A DNA stretch of 33,895 nt from Campylobacterales bacterium (GTDB lineage Bacteria > Campylobacterota > Campylobacteria > Campylobacterales > JAOZPA01). The notes beneath the pieces were generated by a model. It searched no databases, was not told the origin of the DNA, and was given only the letters and a program-made list of their open reading frames with translations. Location: contig JAOZPA010000008.1 of assembly GCA_029932985.1 (NCBI GenBank), positions 1 through 33,895 of the forward strand, given 5' to 3'. A program made the translations under genes and the position numbers. This document shows, in pieces, positions 3,917-33,895 of the stretch (positions are counted from its first letter, which is position 1; the number at the start of each line of letters is the position of its first letter).

Positions 3917-6361
3917 TCATTCGCCGAGGAGTTTTAAGATTCGTTTAAATTTTTTCTTTTTAGCAAAATCTACAACACTCATACCATTTTCATCTTTAAT
4001 TTTATAAAGCAACTCTTTTTTAGCTCCATTTTTGAGCAAAATCTCCACACTTGCCACATCGTTACGACCAACTGCGATATGCAAAGGTGTCATTTTTTGC
4101 CCATTGACCGTTCCAATAGCATTTACATCTGCCCCGTGTTCAATCAAAGCTTTCAATTCTTCAATTTTTTTTCGTTTAATATAACCTAAAAGTTGAGGCA
4201 GATTAGCGGTACTAAATCCTCTAGTGGAATCAGCTTTGATAATAGGTCGGTCGAGAAAAAGTCGATTTTGAGAAAGTTTTTTTTGGTTTAAAAGCCCTAT
4301 TATAAGGGGAAATTTATAGTTTCGTGAACTTATATTGACATTCACATCTGCCCCTTTTGCAATCAGATAACGAAACATATTTTGATTTTTGTACAAAATC
4401 GCATTTGCCAACGGATTATATTTACCTCTTTTGGTATCATCATTTAAGTTCGCACCATTTTCAATCAAAAGTTTAGCTACATCATTTTGGTTTTGAATCA
4501 CCGCCAAAGTTAAAAGTGGCACTCTTTTTTTGTAATGAATCCCGATATCCGCCCGATTATTTATCAGAAACAGTGCAACCTCTTCACTTTTATTATCAAT
4601 CGCTACAACTAAAGGGGTGTTATAATATCGATTTTGTTTGTTAATATTCAATTTATGAGAGAGCAAAAGTTTCAAAATCTCAATTCTTACCTTGGGATGA
4701 TGACCACTTTTTGCCAGAAGATGAAGCAATCCATTTCCAAACATATCTTCAGTTTTAACATCCATCTTTTGATTTATCAAATATTTCACCCCCTTCATAT
4801 TCAAACTACTCACCGCCTCATAGAGTGGAGTTCTGCCATATTTTGCCTTTTTATCGAGCTTCAAAAGTTTTTGCTTATGCAAATAATCCACAATCTCCAA
4901 ACCATTTTTTTTACAATGAGGACTTGACAAAAAAAGATGAGCAGGAGCAAACCAATCCATATCCAGATTTCCCTTAAAACTCCTATCGACCCTCATCCCC
5001 TTATCCACCAGCAATTTTATCTTATCCAGCGAACACTCTTTTTTATTGACCACCAAATCATATAAAATATGGTTATCCCCCTCAAAAGCTACTGTTTTCA
5101 GATTGTACTTATATGAATGCAAAAAATTTTCCAACTCCTCTAGCTTTTTGTCAAGATAATTAAAAATCTCATCCTTTTTCAAATCCGTCGCAATCCAATC
5201 CTCATTAAATCGAATCGCCCAAATATCATACCGCCCCTTTCCATAACTATCAGTATTTCCAACCAGCAGATAATCGCCCCGCTTCGTCACCACAATATCA
5301 CTCGCCACATCATCTTTCTCGCCACCCATCGTCTGCGACCAAATCTCCTCACCATCTTTATCAAGTTTCAAAATTTTCAAATCAGCATTAAAACCCTTAG
5401 TTTTCCCAATCAATATCAAAGTTTCATTTGCCAATTGTGTAATTTTGCTAAAATCCCCTCTCAAAACCCTCTGCCACATCTTTTCACCGTGACGATTAAA
5501 TTTGGTCATATAGGTGTTAAAAATCTGATTTCTAAAAATATTTTTTGAACCAATCGAGATAAAACCATCATCTTTCGTCAAAACCAGCCCACCAGCAATC
5601 TCATCGGTACTTTTTTTCCAAATAATTTTGCCTTTTTTGTTTAATTTTATCAGTAAAAGTTCAGGCTCACCCCTTGCACTTTTTTGCATACTTCCTGCAA
5701 AAACATAATTTCCACCCTTTGTCGTGATAATAGTTTGTGAAAAATCATCAAACACCCCACCAATAAATTTACTCCAAACTTTTTTACCCCTAGAGTTTAT
5801 CTTTAAAATCCAAATATCATATTCACCACTTCCATAGCTATTGGTAACTCCAGCAATCACGAATCCGCCATCTTTGGAGTTGGTTATCGATTTTGGGTAA
5901 TCATTCCCCTCACCGCCAAAACTCTTTTCCCAAATTTTTCTACCAGCTGAGTTAGTTTTTATCACAAATATATCATTATTATCTACATTTTTCTTTTTGT
6001 GAGATTTTTTACCCACAATAATAAAATTTCCGTTGGGGGTCACAATCAAAGATGTAACATATTTTAGCGACCTACTTTTTAACACTTTTTGCCAAATAAT
6101 TTTTTTATTTATATCCATTTTTATTAGTAAAATATTTGAGGATTTAATGCCAGTTACTCCATAAATCGAACGATTCCCTGCGATAATAAATTTTTTATCT
6201 TTTGTTTGTTTTACCGAAAATGAAAATTCATCATTTTTGCCCCCGAAAGTTTTTGTCCAAAATTTTGGCTTTAGATTATCAATACTTGCATAGCTATTTT
6301 GTACAAAAGATATTAGGATAATAAAAAATAGATTTTTCATAAGTATCACTACTTTACTCAT
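3917..6361 (-). CDS. Secreted beta-propeller and ankyrin fusion protein
   Basis: An 814-aa protein. A signal peptide occupies about residues 1-27 (hydrophobic run ending NSYAS). Residues about 33-395 hold seven repeats of roughly 50 aa, each with a W-x-K/Q...GG...D start, a DGGF-x-I-x-G centre and a DIW-x-x-K end, for example FWTKTFGG, IWEKSFGG and IWSQTMGG. This suggests a seven-bladed propeller. Residues about 400-814 are ankyrin repeats (TPLYEAVSSLNMKGVKYL, TPLVVAIDNKSEEVALFL, TPLHIAVGRNDVASVEILL). The ATG at 6361 is supported by an AAGGAGT SD; a second Met, seven codons in, is less likely. The ankyrin half is paralogous to 1247-2281. It probably acts as an exported scaffold; the ligand is unknown. 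Confidence 0.85.
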   Translation of the reverse strand: MSKVVILMKNLFFIILISFVQNSYASIDNLKPKFWTKTFGGKNDEFSFSVKQTKDKKFIIAGNRSIYGVTGIKSSNILLIKMDINKKIIWQKVLKSRSLKYVTSLIVTPNGNFIIVGKKSHKKKNVDNNDIFVIKTNSAGRKIWEKSFGGEGNDYPKSITNSKDGGFVIAGVTNSYGSGEYDIWILKINSRGKKVWSKFIGGVFDDFSQTIITTKGGNYVFAGSMQKSARGEPELLLIKLNKKGKIIWKKSTDEIAGGLVLTKDDGFISIGSKNIFRNQIFNTYMTKFNRHGEKMWQRVLRGDFSKITQLANETLILIGKTKGFNADLKILKLDKDGEEIWSQTMGGEKDDVASDIVVTKRGDYLLVGNTDSYGKGRYDIWAIRFNEDWIATDLKKDEIFNYLDKKLEELENFLHSYKYNLKTVAFEGDNHILYDLVVNKKECSLDKIKLLVDKGMRVDRSFKGNLDMDWFAPAHLFLSSPHCKKNGLEIVDYLHKQKLLKLDKKAKYGRTPLYEAVSSLNMKGVKYLINQKMDVKTEDMFGNGLLHLLAKSGHHPKVRIEILKLLLSHKLNINKQNRYYNTPLVVAIDNKSEEVALFLINNRADIGIHYKKRVPLLTLAVIQNQNDVAKLLIENGANLNDDTKRGKYNPLANAILYKNQNMFRYLIAKGADVNVNISSRNYKFPLIIGLLNQKKLSQNRLFLDRPIIKADSTRGFSTANLPQLLGYIKRKKIEELKALIEHGADVNAIGTVNGQKMTPLHIAVGRNDVASVEILLKNGAKKELLYKIKDENGMSVVDFAKKKKFKRILKLLGE

Positions 6362-8877: not shown

Positions 8878-9471
8878 ATGTCTGATAAAACAATAAATTT
8901 TTATGAAAAAAATCATAAAATGTTAATAAAAAGATATAATAGGGCAAAATTAGAAAAGTTACACCTATTATTTAGAAAAAATATCAAACAAAATGATAAA
9001 ATTTTGGATATAGGTTTTGGGAGTGGAAGAGATTTGAGATATATCCACTCTCTTAGAACAGATTGCTATGGAGCGGAAAGTTGTAATAGTTTTCTGAATA
9101 TTTTAGGCAAAGATAAAATTTTTAAGAATAAGCTTTTTTGTGCTAAGCTACCAAATATAGATTTGCCTATTGATTTTCAATTTAATACTATTATTTTGAT
9201 TGCAGTTATTATGCACCTTTCATTAGAGGATATAGAAAAATCTATTATTGAAATTAAAAAATATCTAAAAGATGATGGGATTATTATAATCAGCTATTCT
9301 ACTACTAAAAGAGAGAATGATGAAAGATTTTTTGAAAATTTAAATGAAAAAATTGTGAATAGTATTTTTTTAAAAAATAGTTTTTATAAGATAGAGACTA
9401 TAAAAACTTATGATGGAATGCAAAGAAAAATTGAATGGATTACAACAATTTATAAGGTTAAAAAAGTATGA
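8878..9471 (+). CDS. Class I SAM-dependent methyltransferase
   Basis: A 197-aa Rossmann-fold methyltransferase. Motif I is ILDIGFGSGRD (about residues 42-52), followed by the acidic end of strand 2 at CYGAES. The post-motif region is FNTIILIAVIMHLSLEDI, and a strand-6/7 end KKYLKDDGIIIISYS follows, as in Methyltransf_11/25 type enzymes. It has no target-recognition domain and no DPPY or N6-adenine motif, so a small molecule, protein or modified base is more likely than a classical restriction-modification substrate. SD AGAGAG precedes the ATG, 24 nt after hslU. Its last four bases overlap the next ORF (ATGA). It is the first gene of the accessory operon. Confidence 0.8.
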   Translation: MSDKTINFYEKNHKMLIKRYNRAKLEKLHLLFRKNIKQNDKILDIGFGSGRDLRYIHSLRTDCYGAESCNSFLNILGKDKIFKNKLFCAKLPNIDLPIDFQFNTIILIAVIMHLSLEDIEKSIIEIKKYLKDDGIIIISYSTTKRENDERFFENLNEKIVNSIFLKNSFYKIETIKTYDGMQRKIEWITTIYKVKKV

Positions 9472-10298
9472 ATAAATTAAAAGTATCATTTTCTGGACAT
9501 GATAAATTTGAATGCAAAGTTGATTGGATTACAAAAGGAATTGACACTTTTATGCAAGATAATAATATTTTTTCCAATATAGACAAAAGTATAGAGACTT
9601 TAGGGCTTGGCAAAAATATGATAAAATCATTAAGATATTGGCTTAACAGTTTGAATATTATGAATAATGGTAAAATGACAATATTTGGTCAAATTCTATA
9701 TGAAAAAGACTTATATTTGGAAAATAGCAATAGTATATGGATTTTACATTGGAATTTAGTTAAAAATATGCAGAATTCAACTCTCTATTATTTGCTTTTT
9801 AATAAATTTTATTTTAATAGTTTTACAAAAAATGAATTAGTTTTTGGAATTCAAAAATGGTTAGAATATAACAACATTAAAAGATTTACAGAAAAAACTT
9901 TAATTTCTGATTGTGAAGTATTAATTAGATTATATACAAGTGAAATGGGATTACTTAGAGAATTAAATTTATTTAATAATTCAAATAGAATTTATAATTT
10001 AAATATTACAAATCGAAGTGAAATTAGTGATGAGCTATTTTTATTTATAATTCTTGACTATATTGATATTTTTTATGAAAAGAATATTAGCACTCTTTCT
10101 ATTAGCGATTTACAGCAAGGGAAAATCAGTATTCAAAAATCTTTGCTTATGAGTGAAAATAGTTTTTACAATAAAATTCATATATTATCTAAATTAACAA
10201 ATGGTGATATAAAATATCAAGAATCATTAGGAATAAGAGAACTTTATATAAAAAATTTGCCTAATAAATTTGATATTTTAAAGAAAATATATGATTAA
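9468..10298 (+). CDS. DUF4007 family protein
   Basis: A 276-aa protein. The N-terminal FSGHDKFECKVDWITKGI (residues 8-25) and GLGKNMIKSLRYWLNSLNI (about 46-64) match the DUF4007 pattern FSGHxxFxxRxxWxxKG and GVGKNMVxxIRYW that I know from genes beside PAPS-reductase/DndC-like genes. The GKNM segment looks like a DNA-binding winged helix rather than a P-loop. The C-terminal half is helical with no further motif. The family has no established biochemical role known to me; DNA binding or sensing is a guess. It overlaps the methyltransferase gene by 4 nt and is 8 nt from the next gene. Confidence 0.8.
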   Translation: MNKLKVSFSGHDKFECKVDWITKGIDTFMQDNNIFSNIDKSIETLGLGKNMIKSLRYWLNSLNIMNNGKMTIFGQILYEKDLYLENSNSIWILHWNLVKNMQNSTLYYLLFNKFYFNSFTKNELVFGIQKWLEYNNIKRFTEKTLISDCEVLIRLYTSEMGLLRELNLFNNSNRIYNLNITNRSEISDELFLFIILDYIDIFYEKNISTLSISDLQQGKISIQKSLLMSENSFYNKIHILSKLTNGDIKYQESLGIRELYIKNLPNKFDILKKIYD

Positions 10299-10306
10299 GG
10301 TTAGAA

Positions 10307-13300
10307 ATGTATAGATATAAAGATAATATTATTTTAAATAAAAATTTCAATAAATCAACGAATATAATTTATGACAAAGCAAACTGTGAAAATTATATAT
10401 TAACAACATCATCAAAAAATATTTTAAAAGTTTTTTTCGATGAGGGTAGCGAAAACTCAATAGCTATAATTGGTTCATTTGGTTGTGGAAAATCCTCTTT
10501 TTTATTGTATCTTAATTCTATTTTATCAAATAATTCTAAATGTGTAGATAAATTAAAAAATACTGATTTAGAATTATATGAAAATTACAAAAAACATACC
10601 TCACGAAATTATTTTCATTTGAAAATTGTAGGAGAATCTATATCTTTTAAAGCAAAATTAAAAAATGAAATTTTAAATTTTACTAATTTAGAAAATTCTT
10701 GTGATTATTTAAATCAAAATAGTAACTACCAACTAACTACATTATTAAAAAAAATTGATTTAGATATTGAAAAAAGTAATTTTGATAGCTTTTTATTTAG
10801 TATCGATGAATTTGGTAAATTTATTGATTTCGCATTAGAAAATAGTAATGATAGTGAGATTTTTGATTTGCAAACTATCGCAGAATTTGTGAATAAAAAA
10901 AATAATTATAAACTTATAGTTGCACTTCATAAAAACTTTAAATCATATTTAAATACAACATCTACGGTTAATTATAGTGATTGGGAAAAGATTCAAGGAA
11001 GATTTGAACATATAATTTTTCAAGATGATTTTTATGAAATGCTGAATATATTTAAAAATAGTATAGATTGCAAAAATACTTCTATTATAGAAGAGGGCAA
11101 AACACTAATATCCAATATTTGCAATAGCTTTACTCAAAATAGAAATATGTCATATTCAATAGAAAGTTTTAAAGAGTTAGTACCCCTTCACCCATTTTCC
11201 ATATTAGTGATTTCAGATTTATTCACAAAATATTTTCAAAATCAAAGGTCAATTTATTCATTTCTTTTTTCCAAAGAGCCATTTGCATTTAGTGAATTTA
11301 TTAATTATGAATATAATCAAACAAGATTATATAATTTAACTATTCTTTATGATTATATAACTTATCTTTTAAAAATCTATAATATTCATCTGCCAGACTC
11401 TGAAGCTTGGTATCTATCGATTCAAAATATAAAAAATAGTAGTTTTTCTAATATAGAGATAGATTTGATTAAAACTATAAGTTTAATAGACAGTTTTAAA
11501 TTGAATTATTTGATTAAAATAAATAAGAACAATTTAATACTTTCATTAAATAGTATATATAACTCAAAGGAAATAGAGTTAACTCTTAATTCTCTTATAA
11601 AAAAAGATATTTTAATTTTAAAAAATAAATCTGATGAATATTCGTTGATTGCAGAATCAAACATCAATATTAATAGAGAATTTATAGATGAATTATCTAG
11701 TTTAGGTAAAATTGATTTAGATAAAAAAGTAAATGATTTTATTAAGCATAAAAATATTATAGCTAAAAGATTTTTCTCTAAATATGGGAATAATAAAAGT
11801 TTTACAAAAATATATGTAGATAAAAATAAAAATATACTACAGCAAAAATATAAAATCTTTATTTTAAATAGTTTAAATTTTAATAATCTTCTTAAATTAA
11901 GCAAAAATAATCCAAAGTCATTATTTATAAATATAGATAATTCTGTAAAAATTGAAAATTTTATAAAAAACATAGAGGCTTTAAATGTAATTTTAGATAA
12001 AAAAAATACAATCATAACTTCAAAAACTAGAGAAATAATTGAAAATATGATGAATGATAATATTGTATCTTTAGAAAATCTTTTGAAAAAAGAGATGGGA
12101 CTAAATAAAATATTTCATAATAATAAAAAATATGATTTTAGCTTAAAAAATATACAACAATTAATTAGTGAAATATTTGAAAAACAGTATTCCTTAACTC
12201 CTATTATAAATAATTACACATTTATCCATTCCATAGCAAAAGGACACCTCACCTCAATTATTAAAAGATTATTTATCTTTATGTTAGAAAAAAATAATCT
12301 TCAAAGTTTGGGTTTTGAAAGTGATAAATATCCTCCTGAAAAAGCTTTGTATCTCTCTGTAATTAAGCCCTCAGGAATGCACCAAAAAGTTAATAATATC
12401 TGGATTCTAACAAAACCAAAAAATTTAAATTTTGATAAGATATGGGATTTTTTAGAAAAAACTTTAAAAGAAAAAATAGGTGTAGATAAATTAATAGAGA
12501 AATTATCAAATGAACCTTTTGGTTTAAATGCTCAAAGTTCCCTATTTTTCATTTCATTATTTATCATAACAAATCATTCATTTGTATCTATTTTTAGAGA
12601 TAATACATATAAATACCAGCTAGATATAGATTTAATTATGAATATGTTTAAAGCTTATAAAAAATATGAATTACAATATATTAAATTAAACAAAAAAGAG
12701 CAAGAGATTTTTAAAATATATTTGACCATTATAAATGATATTTCAAATACAACATATTCAAAAGGTAATATTCAAAAAATAATCAAAACTCTCTATCTTA
12801 ATTTTGACAAATTACCAGAATATGCAAAAAATAGTCAAAATTTATCTCAAAAAGCTAAAAATTTAAGAAGTGCTTTATTATCAGCAAAAGAACCCTATCA
12901 AACTTTTTTCACTCTTTTTCCAAAAGCATTAGGATATGATAATATTGAACAAATTAATAAAGATAAATTTATAAAAGAGTTTAAAAATAGTTTTAATGAA
13001 ATTGTACTTTCCTATAAATTATTAATTTCAGATTTAGAAAATTATATAGCTAAAGCTTTTTTATTAGAACACACCTCTTTTCCTTATGGTAGTGAATCAA
13101 TTAATTTATCAGATAAATTTTTGAAAATGCCTTTAGATAGAGAAGAGAGAGCTTTTATTCAAAATTTCAAATATTCCAATAGCTTGATAGAATTTATAGA
13201 TACTACATCTGTAATATTTAATAATAAAAAAATTACTCAAAGTTATGATAATGAAATTATAATTTTAAAAGAAAAAATCTCAAATTGTGCGGATAAACTA

Positions 13301-13540
13301 TTATCAAAACTAGACATTTTACAACTTAGCTCAAAAAATACTATAAAGACAAGAGTTATCGTAACAAAAAAAGATAAAATAATTAATAAGATAGTCTCAA
13401 TAGATAAAAAAAGAGCAGATATTCTAAATTTAAATTTAATAGAGTTAAAAAAGTTACTATTAACACAGAATTTGTCAAAAAATGAAAAATTATATATTAT
13501 CTCTCAACTATTTGAGGAGGAGGCAGAACTTGAAAAATAA
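10307..13540 (+). CDS. Large P-loop ATPase (BrxC/PglY-like)
   Basis: A 1077-aa protein. Walker A is IIGSFGCGKSS (residues 54-64) and Walker B is SFLFSIDEFGKF (161-172), with the Asp-Glu pair at 167-168. Around residues 290-325 it carries PLHPFSILVISDLF and YFQNQRSIYSFLF, a pattern (LHP... QN-x-RS-x-x-x-FL) I associate with the large ATPases of BREX-type (BrxC/PglY) and DUF4007-linked clusters. The remaining 750 residues are helical, Lys/Asn-rich and unrecognised. It is probably the motor or scaffold of the system. Codon use is extremely AT-rich. The 3' end overlaps the next gene, whose TTG start is preceded by AGGAGG inside this coding region. Confidence 0.8.
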   Translation: MYRYKDNIILNKNFNKSTNIIYDKANCENYILTTSSKNILKVFFDEGSENSIAIIGSFGCGKSSFLLYLNSILSNNSKCVDKLKNTDLELYENYKKHTSRNYFHLKIVGESISFKAKLKNEILNFTNLENSCDYLNQNSNYQLTTLLKKIDLDIEKSNFDSFLFSIDEFGKFIDFALENSNDSEIFDLQTIAEFVNKKNNYKLIVALHKNFKSYLNTTSTVNYSDWEKIQGRFEHIIFQDDFYEMLNIFKNSIDCKNTSIIEEGKTLISNICNSFTQNRNMSYSIESFKELVPLHPFSILVISDLFTKYFQNQRSIYSFLFSKEPFAFSEFINYEYNQTRLYNLTILYDYITYLLKIYNIHLPDSEAWYLSIQNIKNSSFSNIEIDLIKTISLIDSFKLNYLIKINKNNLILSLNSIYNSKEIELTLNSLIKKDILILKNKSDEYSLIAESNININREFIDELSSLGKIDLDKKVNDFIKHKNIIAKRFFSKYGNNKSFTKIYVDKNKNILQQKYKIFILNSLNFNNLLKLSKNNPKSLFINIDNSVKIENFIKNIEALNVILDKKNTIITSKTREIIENMMNDNIVSLENLLKKEMGLNKIFHNNKKYDFSLKNIQQLISEIFEKQYSLTPIINNYTFIHSIAKGHLTSIIKRLFIFMLEKNNLQSLGFESDKYPPEKALYLSVIKPSGMHQKVNNIWILTKPKNLNFDKIWDFLEKTLKEKIGVDKLIEKLSNEPFGLNAQSSLFFISLFIITNHSFVSIFRDNTYKYQLDIDLIMNMFKAYKKYELQYIKLNKKEQEIFKIYLTIINDISNTTYSKGNIQKIIKTLYLNFDKLPEYAKNSQNLSQKAKNLRSALLSAKEPYQTFFTLFPKALGYDNIEQINKDKFIKEFKNSFNEIVLSYKLLISDLENYIAKAFLLEHTSFPYGSESINLSDKFLKMPLDREERAFIQNFKYSNSLIEFIDTTSVIFNNKKITQSYDNEIIILKEKISNCADKLLSKLDILQLSSKNTIKTRVIVTKKDKIINKIVSIDKKRADILNLNLIELKKLLLTQNLSKNEKLYIISQLFEEEAELEK

Positions 13541-14387
13541 GGAGTTGCACATTATTTCAGTTTCAGGTGGAAAAGATAGTGCTGCATTAGTAATCTATTT
13601 GAAACAAAAATATCCAAATAGAAAATTTGAATATATTTTTTTTGATACAGGTGAAGAGTTAGAAGATACTTATAATTATTTAAACAAATTAGAAAGCAAT
13701 TTAGGTATAAAAATACAATATATTAAACCTAAAAAATCATTTATAGAATTTTTGCATGACCATAATGATTATCTCCCCTCACCGCAAAAAAGATGGTGTA
13801 CTATAAAAATGAAAATAGAGACATTTTTTGAATTTATGCAAAGATATAAAGATAAGCAAATCTATAATTATGTAGGAATCAGAGCAGATGAAGATAGAGA
13901 GGGTTTAGTGCCAACAAAGGAAAATATAATTACAATCATGCCCTTTAAAGAGGATGGTATAAATTTAAATGATGTAAAAAGAATTTTACATGATGCAGGG
14001 GTAGGATTACCTGCTTATTATGATGTTATTTACGATGAAAAGTATAATATAGAGTATTTTAGAAGCCGTTCAGGTTGCTATTTTTGTTTCTTTATGAGAC
14101 AAATAGAGTGGGTTTGGCTACTAGAAAAACATCCAGATAAATTTCAAAAAGCGATGGAGTTTGAAAAAATAGGCTATTCGTGGATACAAGGAATGAGTTT
14201 AAAAGAGTTAAGCAAACCTCATACAGTAAAAAAAATAAAAGAATCTTATAAAAGATATGAAGAGATGAAAAAAAAACGACAGATAAAAAATGGAACAATG
14301 TTTGGAGAGATGGAGTTTTTGTCAAAACACGATAAAATGATTGACGAAGTTGAAAAAGATGAATTTTGTATAATGTGTATATTATAA
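13530..14387 (+). CDS. PAPS reductase / DndC-like adenylating sulfurtransferase-type protein
   Basis: A PP-loop ATP pyrophosphatase with motif IISVSGGKDSAALVIYL near its N-terminus and FEYIFFDTGEELEDTYNYL next, as in PAPS reductases, DndC and SspD. The text QKRWCTIKMKI and a CYFC pair followed by RQIEWVWLLE provide conserved Cys residues. DndC uses such cysteines for an Fe-S cluster; a second CIMC sits at the very C-terminus. I choose TTG at 13530 because AGGAGG ends 6 nt before it; an in-frame ATG at 13482 has no SD. The length is then 285 aa. The family activates a substrate as an adenylate and transfers sulfur; in Dnd this makes DNA phosphorothioate. Whether DNA is the substrate here is unknown. 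Confidence 0.85.
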   Translation: MKNKELHIISVSGGKDSAALVIYLKQKYPNRKFEYIFFDTGEELEDTYNYLNKLESNLGIKIQYIKPKKSFIEFLHDHNDYLPSPQKRWCTIKMKIETFFEFMQRYKDKQIYNYVGIRADEDREGLVPTKENIITIMPFKEDGINLNDVKRILHDAGVGLPAYYDVIYDEKYNIEYFRSRSGCYFCFFMRQIEWVWLLEKHPDKFQKAMEFEKIGYSWIQGMSLKELSKPHTVKKIKESYKRYEEMKKKRQIKNGTMFGEMEFLSKHDKMIDEVEKDEFCIMCIL

Positions 14388-14401
14388 AATAAGGATAATT
14401 T

Positions 14402-15679
14402 GTGGCGAATTTAGAATTGAAAATATTATCAAAAAGAGAAGAAAAACATAACAATAAAATAAGTACTTGCTATATGTGCAAAGGAACTTTAGAAGATTAT
14501 GTTCGATCAATTCCAGATAGATATAGAGAATACGATATTCAAAGAGGTATTATTAAAAATAATGTTTATTTGGAAAGACTTACTAATACTATTTTAGAAA
14601 AACAGTATATACCTTCTATAGTATTAGTTGCTGATAATGATAGTTTATCAAAAAATAATGAGTCTTTAATAGTTAAAGACTATAAAATCTTAGATGGTTT
14701 ACAAAGAAGTTATAGAATTAAGTTAATTTATAATGCATATAATTTATATCTTAAAGAAATTCAAGATAATAAAAAAAATGAGATTGAAAGTAAAACGAAA
14801 TTTAGATTATCAAGAGAATTAAAGAATGAATTAGTGGAAAGAGAAACAACAATATCTTATTTATGGACTATTATAGAGTTTTATAGAAATAAAAATGTAG
14901 ATATAAATATTTTTAAAAACTTTATACAATGGTTTGAGGTATGGGATAATTTAGATAAAAATGAACAAATTAATAAAATGTTGCTTTTAAATGCTGGGCA
15001 TAAATCTATGGATTTAAAACATCAATTAGAATTATTGTTTTTAAATATAATTTCTAATACCTATTTAAATGATTTTATTCGTTCAAAAGATATAAATGCA
15101 ACTTACTTTTATAAAAATAAAGAAAAAGGACAATTACATCTTACTCATATAATATCATCTTTAATAGCTTTTGATAAATGTGAACCTATTTTATTAAATC
15201 AAAAATATTTACAAGAATTGCATGAAAATATTGATATAGAGCTAGAACAAGCTAAAATTTTTTTTATGGAAGATAATTTAGAAAAATTTATAAAGTTTTT
15301 CAAAGATTTAGATAAAATTATAGAAGAAAAATATGGAAAAGATGGGTTAGAATGGCTAGGAAGAGAATCAGTATTAATTGGTATGTTTTCTTCTTTTGGA
15401 AAATATTTTCAGTATAAATATAATAAAGATATAAGTCAACTAAATAACTGTTTTTCTGATATATTATCAAAGTTAAGAGAAAACATTGATAATATAAATA
15501 TCAATGAATTTAATGATGCAAAAACTAGTATAAATATAGCTAAAGTAAATATTGGAGATTTATTTAAATATTCAATATATTACTATTTTTGTAAATTACT
15601 CATAAGTAACCAAATAAATAAAAGTTGGAAAACGATTTTTAAAATATCTAAAAGTGAGATAAAAAATGAGTGTAATTGA
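14402..15679 (+). CDS. DGQHR/DndB-like protein
   Basis: A 425-aa protein starting at GTG with an AAGGAT SD. The segment YREYDIQRGIIKNNVY (about residues 41-56) and YKILDGLQRSYRIKLIY (94-110) resemble the N-terminal fold of DndB/DGQHR proteins, whose hallmark is D-G-Q-H-R. Here the motif is D-G-L-Q-R-S (98-103), between DGQHR and the DGQQR of DUF262/ParB-like proteins. DndB represses dnd genes and limits modification. The later text AGHKSMDLKHQLELLFLNI and the helical C-terminus are unassigned. It overlaps the next gene by 14 nt. An alternative reading is a DUF262-like nucleotide-binding protein. Family confidence is moderate. Confidence 0.6.
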   Translation: MANLELKILSKREEKHNNKISTCYMCKGTLEDYVRSIPDRYREYDIQRGIIKNNVYLERLTNTILEKQYIPSIVLVADNDSLSKNNESLIVKDYKILDGLQRSYRIKLIYNAYNLYLKEIQDNKKNEIESKTKFRLSRELKNELVERETTISYLWTIIEFYRNKNVDINIFKNFIQWFEVWDNLDKNEQINKMLLLNAGHKSMDLKHQLELLFLNIISNTYLNDFIRSKDINATYFYKNKEKGQLHLTHIISSLIAFDKCEPILLNQKYLQELHENIDIELEQAKIFFMEDNLEKFIKFFKDLDKIIEEKYGKDGLEWLGRESVLIGMFSSFGKYFQYKYNKDISQLNNCFSDILSKLRENIDNININEFNDAKTSINIAKVNIGDLFKYSIYYYFCKLLISNQINKSWKTIFKISKSEIKNECN

Positions 15680-16811
15680 AGATTTAAGAAATAAAATAGA
15701 TAGATATTTTGAACAACAATCTCAAGAAATTCAAGACAGCTTTGACAATATAGAAACTATTAAAGAACAAATAGATTTTAAAGTTTATCTTGCTAAAAAA
15801 ATTCTTGATAAAGGTATTGAAATTGATAATGAAACAATAGTATTTAACTACATATCAAAAGAAGAATATACATTATCCATTAATACAAATATAAAGTTAT
15901 CATATAAAAATAATCCTTTTTTGATTGTTGATACAAATGATTTTAATTTAGAAAATTTTTATGATGAAGAAAATAAATATTACGCTTCTTTATTATTAGC
16001 ACTGAATCAGAATTGGAATAATTTAAATAATCAATTATGGTTTTTCATTCCATATTGTCAAGTAGATGAAAAGAATTTAGAGTCATTTGTTCAATTTATA
16101 TTATTAATTAATGGAAAAACCTTCCATAGTCCTATTGAAACAACAGAAAATCAATTTCTTATAAACGATGTAAAGAATATTCTAGAGTGTAATATTAAAA
16201 ATTTTAATCAATATCAAGAGAGTGCATATATTCTTAGTGAATACAATCATACTAAAGATATTTTACTTAAGTATTTACTGCTTTATCACATAATAGAGAA
16301 TTTCATGTATCGAAGACCTATTGCAGAAATGGTAAATACAAAATTTACTATTCGAGATTTCAAAAACTTGTATAAAAAAGTAGATTTAACGGAAGAAAAA
16401 ACATTAAAAGAACTTTTAACAAAAATTAAAACTGAAAATATTATTCCTTCACAAACATTAGAAGCTTATTTTGATAATAATCTTCTTAATTATAAAAATT
16501 TATTAACTAGTCAAGATAAAATAAATCAAATTTTTACAAAAATGACTCTATCAAATATCAATGGATTAAACTACAGTAATTCCTCTAAACTTATTTACTA
16601 TTTTAGAAATTCAATTATTCATAATAAAGAAACCGAGTTTCATATTACACATACAACTTTAAATAGTTCATCAGATTTAGTTACTTTTTTTGAAAATTTT
16701 TTATTGCCAATCCTAGAAAATATAATCTATTTTCTTATTTTTAAAGAAAATTCAATTATTGATTATCCTAAAAATCATATTTTATTATATGGAGAAGACT
16801 GTGCAACTTAA
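15666..16811 (+). CDS. HEPN-like protein
   Basis: A 381-aa helical protein. Near the C-terminus the text YYFRNSIIHNKETEF contains R314-x4-H319, the R-x(4-6)-H motif of HEPN ribonucleases, followed by a hydrophobic helix (FFENFLLPILENIIYFLIF) as in HEPN bundles. Upstream text IENFMYRRPIAEMV fits the first HEPN helices. The N-terminal 200 residues, including LNNQLWFFIPYCQVD, are unrecognised. It overlaps both neighbours (14 nt and 11 nt). HEPN proteins are common toxic effectors in defence systems, so this and the GHKL ATPase could be the effector pair; that is inference. Confidence 0.6.
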   Translation: MSVIEDLRNKIDRYFEQQSQEIQDSFDNIETIKEQIDFKVYLAKKILDKGIEIDNETIVFNYISKEEYTLSINTNIKLSYKNNPFLIVDTNDFNLENFYDEENKYYASLLLALNQNWNNLNNQLWFFIPYCQVDEKNLESFVQFILLINGKTFHSPIETTENQFLINDVKNILECNIKNFNQYQESAYILSEYNHTKDILLKYLLLYHIIENFMYRRPIAEMVNTKFTIRDFKNLYKKVDLTEEKTLKELLTKIKTENIIPSQTLEAYFDNNLLNYKNLLTSQDKINQIFTKMTLSNINGLNYSNSSKLIYYFRNSIIHNKETEFHITHTTLNSSSDLVTFFENFLLPILENIIYFLIFKENSIIDYPKNHILLYGEDCAT

Positions 16812-19221
16812 AGAATTATTTTTACAACTATATCAAGCTAAAAATGAAACAGAACTACAAAAAATAATAGATTTCAGTTTACTATTTCAAAATCAGAATA
16901 ATTGGTATCCACTAGGAGGAAATGAAAATAACTTTGGAACTATTGAAAACCAACAAGCCTCTTCTATTGGTGCATTAATTGAAAAACTAACCAATTCTAT
17001 TGATGCAATTTTAATGAGAAAATGTTATGAAAGTGGTATTAATCCAAAATCAAAAAAAGCTCCTAAAACTATGCAAGAAGCAGTTGAAATATTTTATAAA
17101 GATATTTATGATAAATGGAATTTACCATCTTTTGCAAAAGCTCAAGCTCACGAAATACAAATTATAGCAGATGGGACTTTTAAAGATAGAAAAAAAGATA
17201 CTTCTCTAGCTATTTATGATAGTGGAGAAGGGCAACATCCACAAGATTTTGAAAAAACATTTTTATCTATTGGAAAGGGTAATAAGAATGATATTTTGTT
17301 TGTGCAAGGCAAATACAATATGGGTGGAACTGGTTCTATTGTATTTTGTGGAAAAAATCGTTATCAATTAATTGCTTCCAAAAAATATGATAATAGTGGT
17401 AATTTTGGATTTACTCTAATCAGAAAACACCCTTTTACAAAAGAAGATAAAGAGACTAAAAAAAATACTTGGTATGAATATTTTAAAATTGATGAAAAAA
17501 TTCCCTCATTTGAAATTGAAAAATTAAATTTAGGATTACATAGCAGAGAGTTTTCAACAGGTTCAATCATAAAATTATACTCTTATGACTTGCCAACAGG
17601 AGCAAAATCTGTAATTTCTAAAGATTTAAGAGAAAGAGTAGATGAATTTTTATTTGAACCAGCTCTTCCTATTTTGATGGTAGATATAAAAGAGAGATAT
17701 CCAAATGATAGAAACTTACAAAGAGAATCTTTTGGACTCAAAAGAAGGTTAGAAAAAGATAAAAATAAGTATATAGAGGATTATTTTTCCTTAGATTACA
17801 ACAGCCCAAAAACTGGTAAAATGAAAATAACCTCTTATGTCTTTAAAACTAAAATTGAAGATAAAAATGTAAAACAATCTAAAAAAACTATTAAAAATGA
17901 ATTTTTTAGAAGCAATATGTATATTGTTTTTACCCTAAATGGACAAGTTCAAGGGCATTTAACTTCTGAATTTATCACTCGTTCACTCAAATTTCCACTA
18001 CTTAAAGAATATCTATTAGTCCATGTAGATTGTACAAATATGGAGTATGATTTTAGAAGTCAGCTTTTTATGGCTAGTCGTGATAGATTAAAAGAGGGTA
18101 CAGAATATCGGTATTTACGAGAACTATTAACAAAAGAGTTGAAAAAAAGTAAATTAAATACAATTCATAAAAAACGAAAAGATTCTATCTCCATTGACGG
18201 CTCTAATACAGATGAATTAATTAAGTCTTTTACAAAAAATCTTCCGCTCAATAATGAACTATTAAAACTTTTAAATAAAACTTTTGAAATAGATAATGAA
18301 ACTAAAAAGAAAAAGCCACCCAAAAAAAACTCAAATAATAAAAAAGAGGTTGAAGAAAAAGAGTTTATTCCTAAAAGATTTCCATCATTTTTCAAATTAA
18401 AAAACTCAAAAAAAGGAATTAATGCTATAAAAATTCCTAAAGGAAGTGAAAAAACTATCCAATTTGAGACAGATGTAGAAAATCACTACTTTGATAGAGA
18501 TGAAGATAATGGAGAGTTAGAAATTTCAATTGTTGATATAGGTAATAATGAAACAGAGGGTGGAGATAAAAAGGGAGAACCAAAAGGCATTAGTAATATT
18601 TTTGAAATATCCAAATCAAGCCCAGAAAATGGTACGATAAAAATTTCTCTAAATCCAACAGATGAATTAAAAATAGGTGATGAAGTTCAAATAAAAGTAG
18701 AACTATCATCCCCTAACGGAAATTTTGAAGAGATGATTTGGATAGAGATAAATGAACCTCAAAAAGATACTATAAAGAAAAAAGAGATTGAAGATAATGA
18801 AAAAATAGCTCTTCCAGAGTTAATTTTAACATCTCAAAATCCAACTGATGATAAAATAATCTCTTGGGAAAAAATGAATGATATTACTACAATAGATTAT
18901 GAAAATATATTATATATTCTCCAAGATGAAGAAAAAATTGAAAAAATTTATATAAATTTAGATAGCACTGTGCTAAAAAATCATAAATCAAAATTGAAAA
19001 GTAATGAAAAAAGAGAGATAGCAGAAAAAGAATATATAGCAAAAATCTATTTTCATACCCTATTTTTATACTCCATAACTCAAAATAGCAAATATAAAAT
19101 TTTTCAAGAAAATGATGAAGAGTTAGAAATTAATGAATATTTACAAAATATATTTAAAAACGAATATACCTCTTTTTTAATAAATTTCAATACAAATAAT
19201 CTCATTGATGACTTACTGTAA
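16801..19221 (+). CDS. GHKL (Hsp90/MutL-like) ATPase protein
   Basis: A large protein of 806 aa from GTG at 16801 (GGAG ends 6 nt before it); in-frame ATGs at 16789 and 16759 lack a better SD. The Bergerat ATP-binding fold is clear: N-box IEKLTNSIDAIL (residues 60-71), G1 box IYDSGEGQHP (138-147) and G2 box GKYNMGGTGS (170-179). A transducer-like region follows (MYIVFTLNGQVQGHL, VDCTNMEYDFRSQLFMASRDR). A Lys-rich linker (PPKKNSNNKKEVEEKE) leads to a beta-rich Ig-like segment (about residues 590-690) and a helical tail. GHKL ATPases act as ATP-gated clamps in Hsp90, MutL, gyrase and MORC. It is the last gene of the operon. Confidence 0.85.
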   Translation: MQLKELFLQLYQAKNETELQKIIDFSLLFQNQNNWYPLGGNENNFGTIENQQASSIGALIEKLTNSIDAILMRKCYESGINPKSKKAPKTMQEAVEIFYKDIYDKWNLPSFAKAQAHEIQIIADGTFKDRKKDTSLAIYDSGEGQHPQDFEKTFLSIGKGNKNDILFVQGKYNMGGTGSIVFCGKNRYQLIASKKYDNSGNFGFTLIRKHPFTKEDKETKKNTWYEYFKIDEKIPSFEIEKLNLGLHSREFSTGSIIKLYSYDLPTGAKSVISKDLRERVDEFLFEPALPILMVDIKERYPNDRNLQRESFGLKRRLEKDKNKYIEDYFSLDYNSPKTGKMKITSYVFKTKIEDKNVKQSKKTIKNEFFRSNMYIVFTLNGQVQGHLTSEFITRSLKFPLLKEYLLVHVDCTNMEYDFRSQLFMASRDRLKEGTEYRYLRELLTKELKKSKLNTIHKKRKDSISIDGSNTDELIKSFTKNLPLNNELLKLLNKTFEIDNETKKKKPPKKNSNNKKEVEEKEFIPKRFPSFFKLKNSKKGINAIKIPKGSEKTIQFETDVENHYFDRDEDNGELEISIVDIGNNETEGGDKKGEPKGISNIFEISKSSPENGTIKISLNPTDELKIGDEVQIKVELSSPNGNFEEMIWIEINEPQKDTIKKKEIEDNEKIALPELILTSQNPTDDKIISWEKMNDITTIDYENILYILQDEEKIEKIYINLDSTVLKNHKSKLKSNEKREIAEKEYIAKIYFHTLFLYSITQNSKYKIFQENDEELEINEYLQNIFKNEYTSFLINFNTNNLIDDLL

Positions 19222-19302: not shown

Positions 19303-22300
19303 ATGAAAATAGATGAAAAGAAGCAAAAAGCTTTAGATTTAGCCCTAAAACAGATTGAAAAAACTTTCGGTAAGGGGACTTTGGTCAAACTAGGTGATAA
19401 AAACATAGAACCAATTAGTGCTATAAGTACAGGTTCTTTTGGAATTGATAAAGCTTTGGGGATTGGCGGAATTCCACGAGGGCGAATGATTGAAGTCTAT
19501 GGTCCTGAGAGTAGTGGAAAATGTTTTAGTGAAGATAATTATATTCTCACAGAAGAGGGTTATTTAACAATAAAAGAGCTTTTTGAGGGGGAATATCAAT
19601 CTACTCTTGTAAATACAACTAAAACTATATATTTAGAAAAAGATGCCAAAAAACTTATTAATGAAAATAATGATAATGAAGCTGTAACTGCTCTAACTTA
19701 TAATGGCAAGAAAAAAGTTTTTAGAATTACAACCAAAAAGGGTTTTGCCAATGAGGTAACTTTGAATCATCCATTGAGAATTATGGATAAAAATGGTTTT
19801 ATTGTTTGGAAAATGGCTAAAGATATATCATTAGATGATTATTTGGTTTTATCTAAAGATAACTTTTCTAAAAAAAAATCTACTGAGATTAAAATTGATA
19901 TGCACTCCTATATTGCTGGTTTATTTACTGCTGATGGGACAATTAGTGAAAAAAAGATTATGTTTTCAAATGGAGAAAAAGATATATTTGATATGGTTCA
20001 AAATTATTTAGGAATAAATAGCATTGAGTTTAAAAAATATGAAAATCAAAAAGATAGAGTTCCCTCAATTCATATAAATAGAGAAGTTTCTAAAAAGCTT
20101 TTTTTAAAACTTACTGCTTTAAATTTTGGTCTTGCAAAAGATAAAGTGATTCCTAAAAAATATAGAGTTGCTAATGAGGATAAATTGAAAAATTTCATTA
20201 TGGGGTATTTTGATTGTGAATCTCATATAGCAAAGGATTCGATAGAGGTAGTAAGTGCCTCAAAGCAACTTCTTACAGAGGTGCAATTAACTCTTTTATC
20301 TTTTGGAATTGTTAGTGGTATCTCAGAGAAAAGTATTAAAAAATATGCACATAATAACTATTATCGACTTTTTATTTCAGGAAATAATGTAGATATTTAT
20401 ATAAAAACAATAGGAACAAAATCTAAAGTAAAATCCAAACAGATAAAAAAAGCTATATCTTATAAGAAAAATAAAAATGACTTTTCTTATGATATTATTC
20501 CTCATCAAAAACAAAATATCATCTCATTTGTCAAAGATATGCAAAGTGATAGAGATTTACCTGTCGAAGATATAATGTACAAAAAAGATAATGTAGAACT
20601 CTCACAGATGGTTTTAAAAAGATTGCTAAAATATGCAAAAGATAGAAAAAAAGGCAAAACAGCAGAAATTTTTATGGAATATTATCAAGATATTATAGAT
20701 AGAAATCTTTATTTTAGTAAAGTCAAATTTATTGAAGATTTGGGTACAAAACGAACTTTTGATGTTTTTATGCCTAAAACGCACTCATTTATTATGAATG
20801 GAATTATTAATCATAATACAACTTTGACTCTTCACATAATTGCGGAGGCTCAAAAGGAGGGTGGGATTTGTGCATTTATAGATGCAGAACATGCTCTTGA
20901 TGTGATTTATGCCAAAAATTTAGGGGTGGATATTGATAATCTCTTGGTTTCTCAGCCAGATTTTGGTGAACAAGCTTTGGATATTGTGGAAGCGGTGGCA
21001 AGAAGTGGAGCGGTTGATGTAATTGTGATAGATTCGGTGGCGGCTTTGACCCCAAAAGCGGAGATTGAAGCAGATATGAGTGCTAATCATGTGGGACTTC
21101 AAGCTAGACTTATGAGCCAAGCTTTGCGAAAACTCACCGCCGTTACTCACAAGATGAACACTACAATTATATTTATAAATCAACTTAGAATGAAAATTGG
21201 CACAATGGGTTACGGATGTTTTCATTATGATACTTTAGTAAATTTTGCAGATGGTAGGAGTATTCCTATTGGTGAAGTCGTTGATAATAAAATTAATGGA
21301 GATGTTTATACTATTAATGAAAAAAATGATAAAATAGAGAGAAAACCAATTATTGATTGGCACGATAATGGTAAAGTTGCAAATAGTGATGAGTTTGTGC
21401 ATATTCAAACGCAATCGATAGATGGAAAAGGTCGATTTGGTTTTACTTGTACTCAAAATCACAAAATTTTAACAGATAATGGTTGGAAAGAGGCTGGTGA
21501 GCTAAGTTTTAAAGATAAATTAATCTCAAAATATACCAAAACAATTAATGGAACTTATGGAGATTTTTTACGAGGTATTTTAATTGGGGATAGTAGATTA
21601 AATATTAGAGATAAAAATACGGCTAATTTAAAATTTCAAGATAATGAAAATCAAGATTATCTAAATTGGAAACTTGACAAACTCGAAAAATTTTTGGAGT
21701 TTAAAGAGCTTAAAATTAATAGAGGATTTAGATATGATAGTAATTTTAGCTATGAGTTTGCAAAAATAAAAAGAGAATTAGGGGAAAGAAACCCTCTATT
21801 TATGCTTGAAAATTACTCTCCATTAAGTTTAGCTCTTTGGTATATGGATGATGGATATTATGATAACAATAATGGACATAGCAGAACAAATATCTCTATA
21901 AAAAGATTTAAAAATCAAAATATTTTACTTGATAAAATAGTAAAGACATTAAGAGAAAAAACATCAATAGATGGGATTTCTATTTTTTATAAAGAGGGAA
22001 ATATTATGTTTACGGTTAAAGCAACTAATAGTTTAGCAAATATTATAGCTCCTTATATTCCAAAGTCAATGCAGTATAAATTACCTGACAAATTTAAAGG
22101 TAGATATATTGACTTTAAGCTAGAAAATTTACCTGAAATTATTACAGATTCTGTTGAGATTAGAGAAATTAGAGAGGCGTCATCTCGTCAAATGAGAAAA
22201 AAAAGAAAATTTGATATATCGGTTAAAGATAATCATAACTATATGGTGGGAGGCTCAAAAAATGGAGTTATTGTCTCAAATAGTCCAGAGACAACCACAG

Positions 22301-22662
22301 GCGGAAATGCACTTAAGTTTTATACCTCTGTTCGGATTGATGTGAGAAAAATTGCAACACTAAAGCAAGGTGATGATATTATTGGTAACAGAGTGAGAGC
22401 CAAAATTGTTAAAAACAAAGTTGCCCCTCCATTTCAACAAGCTTTATTTGATATAATGTATGGCACGGGAATCTCAAAATCGGGTGAATTAATAGATTAT
22501 GCTATAAAATACAATATTATAAATCAAAGTGGTTCATGGTTTAGCTACGGCGAAATGAAATTAGGACAAGGTAGAGAAAAAGTTAGAGAACTTTTAAAAA
22601 CAGATAAAAAATTAGCTTTAGAGATAGAGAAAAAAATTAAAATAGAGATTAAAGGAGCTTGA
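19303..22662 (+). CDS. recA: RecA recombinase precursor with two inteins
   Basis: A 1119-aa precursor. The exteins are residues 1-73, 506-638 and 994-1119; joined they give a 332-aa RecA of near-normal length. Extein text is typical: [26 protein letters not shown], Walker [35 protein letters not shown] (Walker B), [29 protein letters not shown], and a C-terminal [16 protein letters not shown]. Bars mark intein sites. RecA forms filaments on single-stranded DNA for strand exchange and repair. Both inserts are in frame, so active RecA requires both splicing reactions. SD ATAAGGA precedes the ATG; I see no LexA box. A TATTAT (19273-19278) is a possible -10. TA genes follow 3 nt downstream. Confidence 0.97.
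19522..20817 (+). mobile_element. RecA intein 1 (Walker A site, LAGLIDADG)
   Basis: A 432-residue intein, RecA precursor residues 74-505. It starts with Cys74 ([20 protein letters not shown], block A). Block B is VTLNHPLR with T153 and H156. Two LAGLIDADG-type helices follow: [12 protein letters not shown] (D211) and [10 protein letters not shown] (D304). It ends [10 protein letters not shown] with His504-Asn505, followed by Thr506 as the +1 nucleophile. All residues of class 1 splicing are present, so both splicing and homing activity look intact. The insertion splits GPESSGK from TTLTLH in the P-loop, a favoured intein site in many ATPases. Confidence 0.95.
21217..22281 (+). mobile_element. 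RecA intein 2 (before [17 protein letters not shown])
   Basis: A 355-residue intein, precursor residues 639-993. It starts with Cys639 ([20 protein letters not shown]). Block B is [13 protein letters not shown] (T717, H720). The endonuclease has [12 protein letters not shown] (D763) and [12 protein letters not shown] (D849/D850), a subtype distinct from intein 1. It ends GVIVSN: Asn993 is present but the penultimate residue is Ser992, not His; the +1 residue is Ser994. The site, between GYG and SPETTTGG, lies at the start of the L2 DNA-binding loop. I believe the M. leprae RecA intein uses this site, from memory. Confidence 0.95.
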
Positions 22663-29109: not shown

Positions 29110-30663
29110 TTAGATTTTCATCTCATTTTCATCTCGTGGTTTGATTTTGAGATTGTTTTTCATCGAAAGGTAGGAGTTTAAAGCCCCAACATAAGCTTTT
29201 GCACTAGCAATTACAGTATCGATATTTAATCCGTGACCAATGACTGCTGATGAACACTCTTCAAACTGCACCTTAACAACCACTCTAGCCAAGGCATCCT
29301 TGCCTCTACTTACCGCACTCACTCTAAAATCTTTCAAAATTCCCGTTAATTTCACCGCATCATCGATTGCATTAAAGATTGTATCCATCGTGCCATCTCC
29401 TGTCGCAGTCCCCAAAACCTCTGAGCCATTATGTGCAATAGTCACCGTGGCTTCAGATTTATCATCACTCTCATTATTTGATTTAAGCTTTACAAACTTA
29501 TAAATTTGGGTTGTTTTGATAATTTCATCAGAGATAATCGCTCGAATATCATCATCAAAAATCTCTTTTTTCTGGTCAGCCAAGACTTTAAATCGCTTAA
29601 AAGCTTCATTTAATTCCTCCGTTGCCAAATCGTAACCCAAAGTTTTTATCCTATCACTAAATGCGTGACGACCCGAAAGTTTGCCCAAAACCAACGAATT
29701 TTTTTCCAAGCCAATATCTTCTGCTCTCATAATTTCATAGGTTTCTTGATGTTTCAAAATCCCATCTTGATGAATTCCACTCTCGTGAGCAAAAGCATTT
29801 TTACCCACAATTGCCTTGTTTGGTTGCGGTGAGATTCCTGTGATATTTGCCACCAATTGACTAGTTGGAAAAATCTCTTTGGTGTTTATATTTGTGAAAA
29901 TATCTGGAAATTTATCGGCTCGTGTTTTTATCGCCATCACCACCTCCTCCAAAGCTGCATTTCCAGCTCTCTCGCCTAAACCATTAATGGTACACTCAAT
30001 CTGCCTAGCTCCCCCCTCGATACAAGCCAACGAATTAGCAACCGCCAAACCCAAATCATTATGACAATGCACGGAGATAATCGCCCTATCCTGTACCGTT
30101 TTTTTAAGTTCACTAATCATATATTTCATCTCTTGAGGCATCCGATAACCCACCGTATCGGGGATATTTAGGGTTGTAGCCCCCGCACCGATGACTGCAT
30201 CCAAAATCTCCTGCATAAATTTTATGTCACTTCGCCCCGCATCTTCACAGCTAAATTCCACATCATTTGTGAAAGTTTTGGCAAAAGCGACTGACTCAAC
30301 CGCCCGTTTTATCACTTCATCGGAACTCATTCGTAACTTATATTTCATGTGGATTTGGCTGGTGGCGATAAAAGTATGGATTCGCTTATGTTTTGCACTT
30401 CTAATCGCATCTCCTGCAAACTGAATATCCTTTTCTAAAGCCCTAGCAAGTGAGCAAACCACACTATTTTTGATTCTATCGGAAATTTGCCGAATCGCCT
30501 CAAAATCCCCGGGGGAAGCCGCTGCAAAACCCGATTCTATCACATCGACTCCCAATTTTTCCAATTGTAATGCAATCTGAATCTTCTCCTGCATATTCAT
30601 AGAAGCCCCAGGACTCTGCTCACCATCTCTTAAAGTTGTATCAAATATTATTATATTATTCAT
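29110..30663 (-). CDS. leuA: 2-isopropylmalate synthase
   Basis: A 517-aa enzyme for the first committed step of leucine synthesis: acetyl-CoA plus 2-oxoisovalerate gives 2-isopropylmalate. The N-terminal TIM barrel has [12 protein letters not shown] (R12, D13), metal-binding H199 and H201 in [12 protein letters not shown], and [26 protein letters not shown] lies in the linker, and the C-terminal regulatory domain (about 385-505) contains the leucine-feedback fold region ([21 protein letters not shown]). Length is typical of LeuA type 1. SD AAGGAT precedes the ATG. Upstream lies a leucine leader peptide (30725-30808), pointing to translation-dependent control. Confidence 0.97.
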
Positions 30664-30724
30664 TATATATCCTTGAAAATTGTTATTATTGTTTTGTGAA
30701 AAAAGTGTAAATTAATTTAGTATG

Positions 30725-30808
30725 TTAAAAATTGAGCAGTAGAGTATTGTAGTATTTTTGATTATGATTTTGGTGATTTTTTTGTTTGGTAGAGTATTTC
30801 CTAAACAT
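30725..30808 (-). CDS. leuL: Leucine leader peptide upstream of leuA
   Basis: A 27-codon ORF ending 61 nt before leuA. It has its own SD (AAAGGAG) and a TATAAT about 20 nt before the ATG. The peptide begins MFRKYSTKQK and ends YYNTLLLNF. The three Leu codons are CTA, CTG and CTC in a row, while neighbouring genes mostly use TTA, TTG and CTT. A run of scarce regulatory codons just before the stop is the hallmark of amino-acid leader peptides such as E. coli leuL. No GC-rich terminator lies between it and leuA, so control may be translational or Rho-dependent. I checked every codon against the sequence. Confidence 0.75.
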   Translation of the reverse strand: MFRKYSTKQKNHQNHNQKYYNTLLLNF

Positions 30809-30828
30809 TTTATCTCCTTTTTTTTATC

Positions 30829-30834
30829 ATTATA
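30829..30834 (-). promoter_or_regulatory. -10 box for the leuL-leuA transcript
   Basis: TATAAT on the minus strand within TTGTATAATGATA, 20 nt before the leader ATG. No clear -35 is seen, which is usual for Campylobacterota sigma-70 promoters. The remainder of the 356-bp gap (30835-30960) is AT-rich with nothing else I can name. Confidence 0.55.
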
Positions 30835-30964
30835 CAATAAATTTGATTTAAAGGCAATAGGGGATTTTTTATCCTCACAAATATACTTAGGATTAGAAAT
30901 TAAATTCTATTGAAAAGTCATTTTCTTCTATCTATCTCAAAACTTTAAATATTTTTAAGGATAA

Positions 30965-33687: not shown

Positions 33688-33752
33688 TAAAATCTACGGG
33701 TTTGATTTATTAAGCAATATTTTTTATTTTTCTTGTCGTAGCATTTGGAGAA

Positions 33753-33828
33753 GGAGCAACTTCGGGGTCTGAGGAAGTTTAAGGAATAAAGGAGCAACTT
33801 CGGGGTCTGAGGAAGTTTAAGGAATAAA
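33753..33828. repeat. Perfect 2 x 38-bp tandem repeat
   Basis: Units 33753-33790 and 33791-33828 are identical, beginning GGAGCAACTTCGGGGTCTGA and ending AAGGAATAAA. Each contains AACTTC and GAAGTT facing each other over a 10-nt loop (33758-33779 in unit 1), so each can form a small hairpin. No coding frame is convincing. The G+C is higher than in the surroundings. It may be a copy-number-variable repeat or part of a non-coding RNA or 5' leader of a gene beyond the window. Confidence 0.8.
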
Positions 33829-33895
33829 ACTTAATTCAATATTGGTTTAAATCTAATTATGCTACAAAGTGAGAGAAAATGGTTATTTTAAGATT

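Follow-up and report, generated by a model that had tools for sequence, protein, structure and literature searches.

Upstream of leuA in a Campylobacterales bacterium lies a 27-codon open reading frame that ends in a short run of leucine codons. We ask here whether this ORF is a leader peptide gene and, if so, how it might control leuA. The analysis covered the whole 33,895-nucleotide stretch of contig on which the ORF resides, referred to as the window, together with leuA loci from related genomes.

Leucine leaders of this kind have been known since 2013, when Porcelli et al. named LeuL of C. jejuni, a 28-aa peptide with five rare Leu codons, and predicted orthologs in most Epsilonproteobacteria that have leucine genes (PMC3847290). 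The same authors described short leuL RNAs in C. jejuni that end shortly past the stop codon and proposed a termination/antitermination mechanism (PMC3847290). Ribo-seq of C. jejuni in 2025 revealed a translation-initiation peak at the LeuL start codon, and tBLASTn searches in that study placed the leader in C. jejuni or related Campylobacter alone (PMC11955535), a narrow range that is expected for so short a peptide. Within the literature searched, the mechanisms of amino-acid leaders in Campylobacterota are largely unexplored by experiment.

The leader ORF in the window

The features of the locus are as follows.

30829..30857, minus strand: sigma70-type promoter-like site, TTGCCT, 17 nt, TATAAT (30834-30829)
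30814..30818, minus strand: Shine-Dalgarno AGGAG of leuL, 5 nt upstream of the ATG, from the sequence
30725..30808, minus strand: leader ORF leuL, 27 codons plus TAA, peptide MFRKYSTKQKNHQNHNQKYYNTLLLNF, from the sequence and comparison with relatives
30734..30742, minus strand: proposed control Leu codons CTA CTG CTC, non-preferred in this genome by codon counts
30680..30724, minus strand: G-free, C-containing spacer from the leuL stop to the leuA Shine-Dalgarno, 45 nt with 8 C and 0 G
29110..30663, minus strand: leuA, 2-isopropylmalate synthase, the presumed regulated gene, with HMGL-like and LeuA dimerisation domains that back its identity

The original prediction of a 27-codon ORF with its own TATAAT and Shine-Dalgarno (SD) sequence, ending in Leu-Leu-Leu-Asn-Phe, was confirmed by the sequence. 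The ORF runs from 30808 to 30725 and closes with CTA-CTG-CTC-AAT-TTT-TAA, which places the Leu codons at 30742-30740 (CTA), 30739-30737 (CTG) and 30736-30734 (CTC). That these codons are non-preferred also holds: among the 1,054 Leu codons of the window genes, CTA contributes 10.2%, CTG 4.1% and CTC 3.5%, compared with 43% for TTA. Among ORFs of 12-45 codons on both strands of the 33.9-kb window, leuL alone combines an SD with three CTN codons in a row close to the end. Dinucleotide shuffling of the 352-nt region upstream of leuA yielded such an ORF in 0 of 20,000 trials, which bears out the observation and places it beyond chance. The TATAAT lies 20 nt from the leuL ATG. Promoter-like matches in this AT-rich upstream region occur at chance level (5 against 4.7 expected), and the site thus counts by its position only. 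An exact TATAAT 10-60 nt before leuL is present in 29 of the 57 representative relatives described below, where 7 would be expected.

The leuL stop codon is separated from the leuA ATG (30663) by 61 nt. Published LeuL and the window leader share their location before leuA, a length of 20-35 aa, an SD, a short spacer and a C-terminal run of rare CUA/CUC/CUG Leu codons (PMC3847290). With 27 aa, an AGGAG and 61 nt to leuA, the window leuL is a LeuL-type leader peptide gene. The prediction of a leucine leader for leuA stands; the leader is not an overlooked new kind, LeuL having been named in 2013 (PMC3847290). In contrast to published LeuL loci, no leuBCD comes after leuA in the window, and the next gene is convergent. 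No second LeuL was found elsewhere in the window's genome, no Rfam family was found in the window, and none of the six LeuL peptides tried was matched by an NCBIfam model.

Several other features of the window were recorded. The 1119-aa recA ORF (19303-22662) is apparently interrupted by two inteins, as it contains two stretches of intein-splicing type along with LAGLIDADG domains that belong to two families. A defence-like island (8878-19221) encodes SspB, SspC and SspD homologues of the phosphorothioation type followed by DzbA- and DzbB-like proteins, along with a large ORF that has no PADLOC match. Ankyrin repeats occur in an 814-aa ORF (3917-6361), and a neighbouring 344-aa ORF (1247-2281) is ankyrin-like by eye only. 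A near-identical direct repeat at 33750-33830, with ggagcaacttcggggtctgaggaagtttaaggaataaa, was seen in the raw sequence.

Leader peptides and a conserved motif in relatives

leuA is present in 210 of the 299 genomes of the order. A further leuA sample comprised 80 named loci, of which the last nine, from other phyla, were excluded. At 131 loci leuA is preceded by an ORF with an SD and a CTN-rich tail; as two routes led to the same genome for some of these loci, statistics were calculated on 57 representatives with less than 72% mutual identity. The position of the leader before leuA and its CTN Leu run are kept across Campylobacterota, so that the lack of conservation that would have spoken against the original prediction was not seen. 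In some lineages no leader could be recognised before leuA. The leaderless upstream regions of L057, L062, L063, L064, L072 and L112 have a common TTAACCCCTTTTTAAT element near the leuA start.

In six families the peptide carries a longer motif, K..K.LPKIEIKNxLL. In 62 distinct leaders the positions L, P, K, I, E and N within LPKIEIKN never change, nor do the two Leu residues that follow; these leaders were chosen by the core PK[IV]E[IT][KR]N, so the informative observations are the invariant L, the two Leu residues and the choice made at the variable positions of the pattern. The Pro, Ile, Glu and Leu codons of the motif region vary freely across the same 62 leaders. For LPKIEIKN, pS is 0.87 and pN 0.030, giving a pN/pS of 0.035, compared with 0.37 for the six codons just upstream. 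A peptide profile search with the motif matched 75 of the 299 genomes at E<=4e-10, with one strong match each, from families f4, f10, f11, f18, f20 and f22. Wherever both coordinates are listed for a genome, the match adjoins leuA on its upstream side. This LPKIEIKN subgroup is defined in the present analysis and lies outside the published definition of LeuL.

In the window's genome the profile gave no match better than E=0.18, and the window peptide lacks the conserved K..K.LPKIEIKNxLL pattern, retaining only NTLLL. Arcobacter- and Sulfurimonas-type leaders are also without the motif and keep the Leu run. The motif is thus an addition to LeuL and not its core. Conservation at the peptide level would be unexpected if the Leu codons alone sufficed, and the simplest inference from these alignments is that the LeuL nascent chain has an effect of its own within the exit tunnel, besides the role of the Leu codons.

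The Leu run covaries with the leader's own Shine-Dalgarno

In relatives, the CTCTCCT of the Leu run is the complement of the leuL SD, AGGAGAG. Since AGGAG and CTCCT are complementary trivially, the fit of each SD to its own Leu tail was compared with its fit to permuted tails from other leaders. The leuL SD pairs with its own tail at a mean of -10.16 kcal/mol, against -9.12 kcal/mol permuted (z -4.6). The z-score is -4.5 when tails are permuted within leader types and again -4.5 against synonymous redraws. Neither the N-terminal coding part nor the 39 nt following the stop codon paired with the leuL SD any better than permuted sequences did, and the leuA SD fits the Leu tail worse than permuted (-4.74 versus -5.08, z +2.1).

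With the register fixed, the outer five SD-Leu positions pair above permuted (p 0.0035). In leaders whose run starts with CTC, SD position 6 matches the base before that codon in 27 of 38, compared with a permuted mean of 18.9 (p 0.0003). Clear cases of pairing are AGGAGGATAG with CTATCCTCCT (L025) and AGGATAGAAG with CTTCTATCCT (L036), and the SD-Leu helix dominates the predicted folds of both. Among related Campylobacteraceae the covarying position is C:G (L071), a T-G wobble (L073) or A:T (L080), with one mismatch (L118). In these tests, which remove the effect of relatedness only in part, the Leu-codon run of relatives covaries with the SD of the leader itself and not with that of leuA. 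In the window the leuL SD-Leu pairing is weak, with a poor rank of 0.95 and 5 of 6 positions paired in the fixed register.

In the parts covered here, PMC3847290 makes no mention of the LPKIEIKN motif, of SD-Leu covariation or of Rho, and no occurrence of LPKIEIKN was found in full-text papers. The conserved LeuL peptide motif and the pairing of the leader with its own ribosome-binding site have apparently not been described before.

Termination signals and the spacer before leuA

No intrinsic terminator-like site was found between the window leuL and leuA. The predicted fold of the window leader has a z-score of +1.6, its stability being equalled or exceeded by 195 of 200 shuffles, and no alternative stable RNA structure rose above shuffles. 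The original prediction for this locus holds as far as a leucine leader before leuA is concerned; classical hairpin attenuation finds no support here. Among the relatives, terminator-like sites occur in 4 of 57 leaders, compared with 0.4 in shuffled sequences, and a minority of lineages may use intrinsic termination.

The 45 nt that follow the Leu codons and stop in the window are rich in C relative to G and would be free of ribosomes, as expected for a Rho attenuator, which makes this spacer a candidate Rho-loading region. In relatives the median C/G of the 5' flank is 3.4 for leuA and 0.84 for other genes, and C/G before leuA is 2.0 with a leader and 1.1 without. The start of another window gene (6536) is similarly G-poor, and a C-rich, G-poor spacer is in itself no proof of a rut site. 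A rho gene is present in the window's genome. Together, the scarcity of terminators and the C-rich, G-poor spacers favour Rho-dependent or translation-coupled attenuation over a classical hairpin switch. Given the published short RNAs, Rho-dependent attenuation would be the best-supported reading.

Discussion

We consider it likely, on comparative sequence grounds, that the window ORF is a LeuL leader in which ribosomes stalled at the Leu codons relieve an early, probably Rho-linked, stop before leuA. In this model leuL would be translated while the leuA mRNA is being made. When Leu-tRNA is plentiful, ribosomes would clear the rare Leu codons and exit at the stop, so that none would cover the C-rich, G-poor stretch between the Leu run and the start of leuA. 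Rho would then most likely terminate transcription of the bare RNA prematurely, or else the RNA would be degraded. In many relatives the freed Leu run could pair with the leader's own SD, halting leader translation so that the RNA stays bare. When leucine is short, uncharged Leu-tRNA would hold the ribosome on the Leu codons, the RNA would be covered, the SD would remain open and leuA would be expressed. In the six families with the motif, LPKIEIKN in the nascent chain before the Leu codons probably reinforces or tunes the stall. As the window leuL lacks the motif and its SD pairing ranks at 0.95, the motif and SD-pairing steps may not operate there.

Other mechanisms have to be weighed against Rho-linked relief by stalling. 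Classical attenuation, in which alternative hairpins past leuL, an antiterminator and an intrinsic terminator, compete as in the enteric trp, his and leu operons, would account for the C. jejuni leuL RNAs that end soon after the stop, for the termination/antitermination proposed there (PMC3847290) and for the four leaders with terminator-like hairpins. We regard it as improbable, since such a site is missing from the other 53 relatives and from the window leader, whose fold is no more stable than its shuffles. Translational control, with the Leu run serving as an anti-SD against the leuA start site, has a precedent in Actinobacteria (PMC1262725) and fits the CTCCT-like sequence within the Leu runs. 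The evidence makes this very hard to sustain, as the covariation partner is the SD of leuL and the leuA SD pairs with the tail worse than permuted.

The strong purifying selection on the eight residues before the Leu codons, where synonymous change is near-saturated, and a position of the motif that suits the upper exit tunnel could instead reflect an arrest peptide, in which LPKIEIKN stalls or releases the ribosome on leucine itself, as in TnaC, and not only on uncharged tRNA. This seems unlikely: the window, Arcobacter- and Sulfurimonas-type peptides lack the motif although their Leu run is retained in its place, and in family f22 one member has a degenerate motif and its sister an intact one (L002, L003). 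The loss of the motif and of SD pairing from the window copy could also mean that the leader has decayed into a chance ORF without function in this organism. That is very improbable, because the leader, in AT-rich surroundings, has held on to its SD, spacing and position along with three rare Leu codons in a row, which shuffling never reproduced. A more elaborate form of the Leu-codon stall can be put forward as a speculative idea, namely a composite leucine sensor in which LPKIEIKN programmes or reinforces the stall on the Leu codons beside it, and those codons, acting as an anti-SD after the ribosome has departed, close off translation of the leader and expose a Rho site; the window organism would have a reduced, codon-only version. 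If true, this attenuator would dispense with hairpin terminators, and the same few codons would encode a peptide, a codon and an RNA-pairing layer.

The comparison places leuL, whose small size puts it beyond the reach of routine annotation, in a family spread over many Campylobacterota, and turns LeuL from a catalogue entry into testable questions of mechanism. One is why LPKIEIKN is under strong selection at the protein level if Leu codons should suffice; another is whether the Leu codons also gate translation of the leader itself.

Like the enterobacterial leu and trp attenuators, LeuL is a leader peptide with control codons for the regulated amino acid; it differs in that terminator and antiterminator hairpins are missing in the window and most relatives. 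In E. coli tnaC, attenuation is Rho-dependent and involves a leader peptide that acts as an arrest peptide. The likeness to LeuL lies in a stalled ribosome that is presumed to shield a Rho site rich in C and poor in G and, in many relatives, in conserved residues of the nascent chain. In contrast to tnaC, LeuL precedes a biosynthetic gene and has a run of control codons, the action of Rho is putative and the window copy is without the motif. The actinobacterial LEU element is likewise a leucine-run leader before leuA whose Leu run pairs with an SD (PMC1262725). We rejected the window and Campylobacterota leaders as members of this element on the leuA SD pairing (z +2.1). The LEU element pairs its Leu run with the SD of leuA and has a pseudoknot, whereas the Campylobacterota run covaries with the leader's own SD; it is nevertheless the closest parallel for the pairing of a Leu run with a Shine-Dalgarno (PMC1262725).
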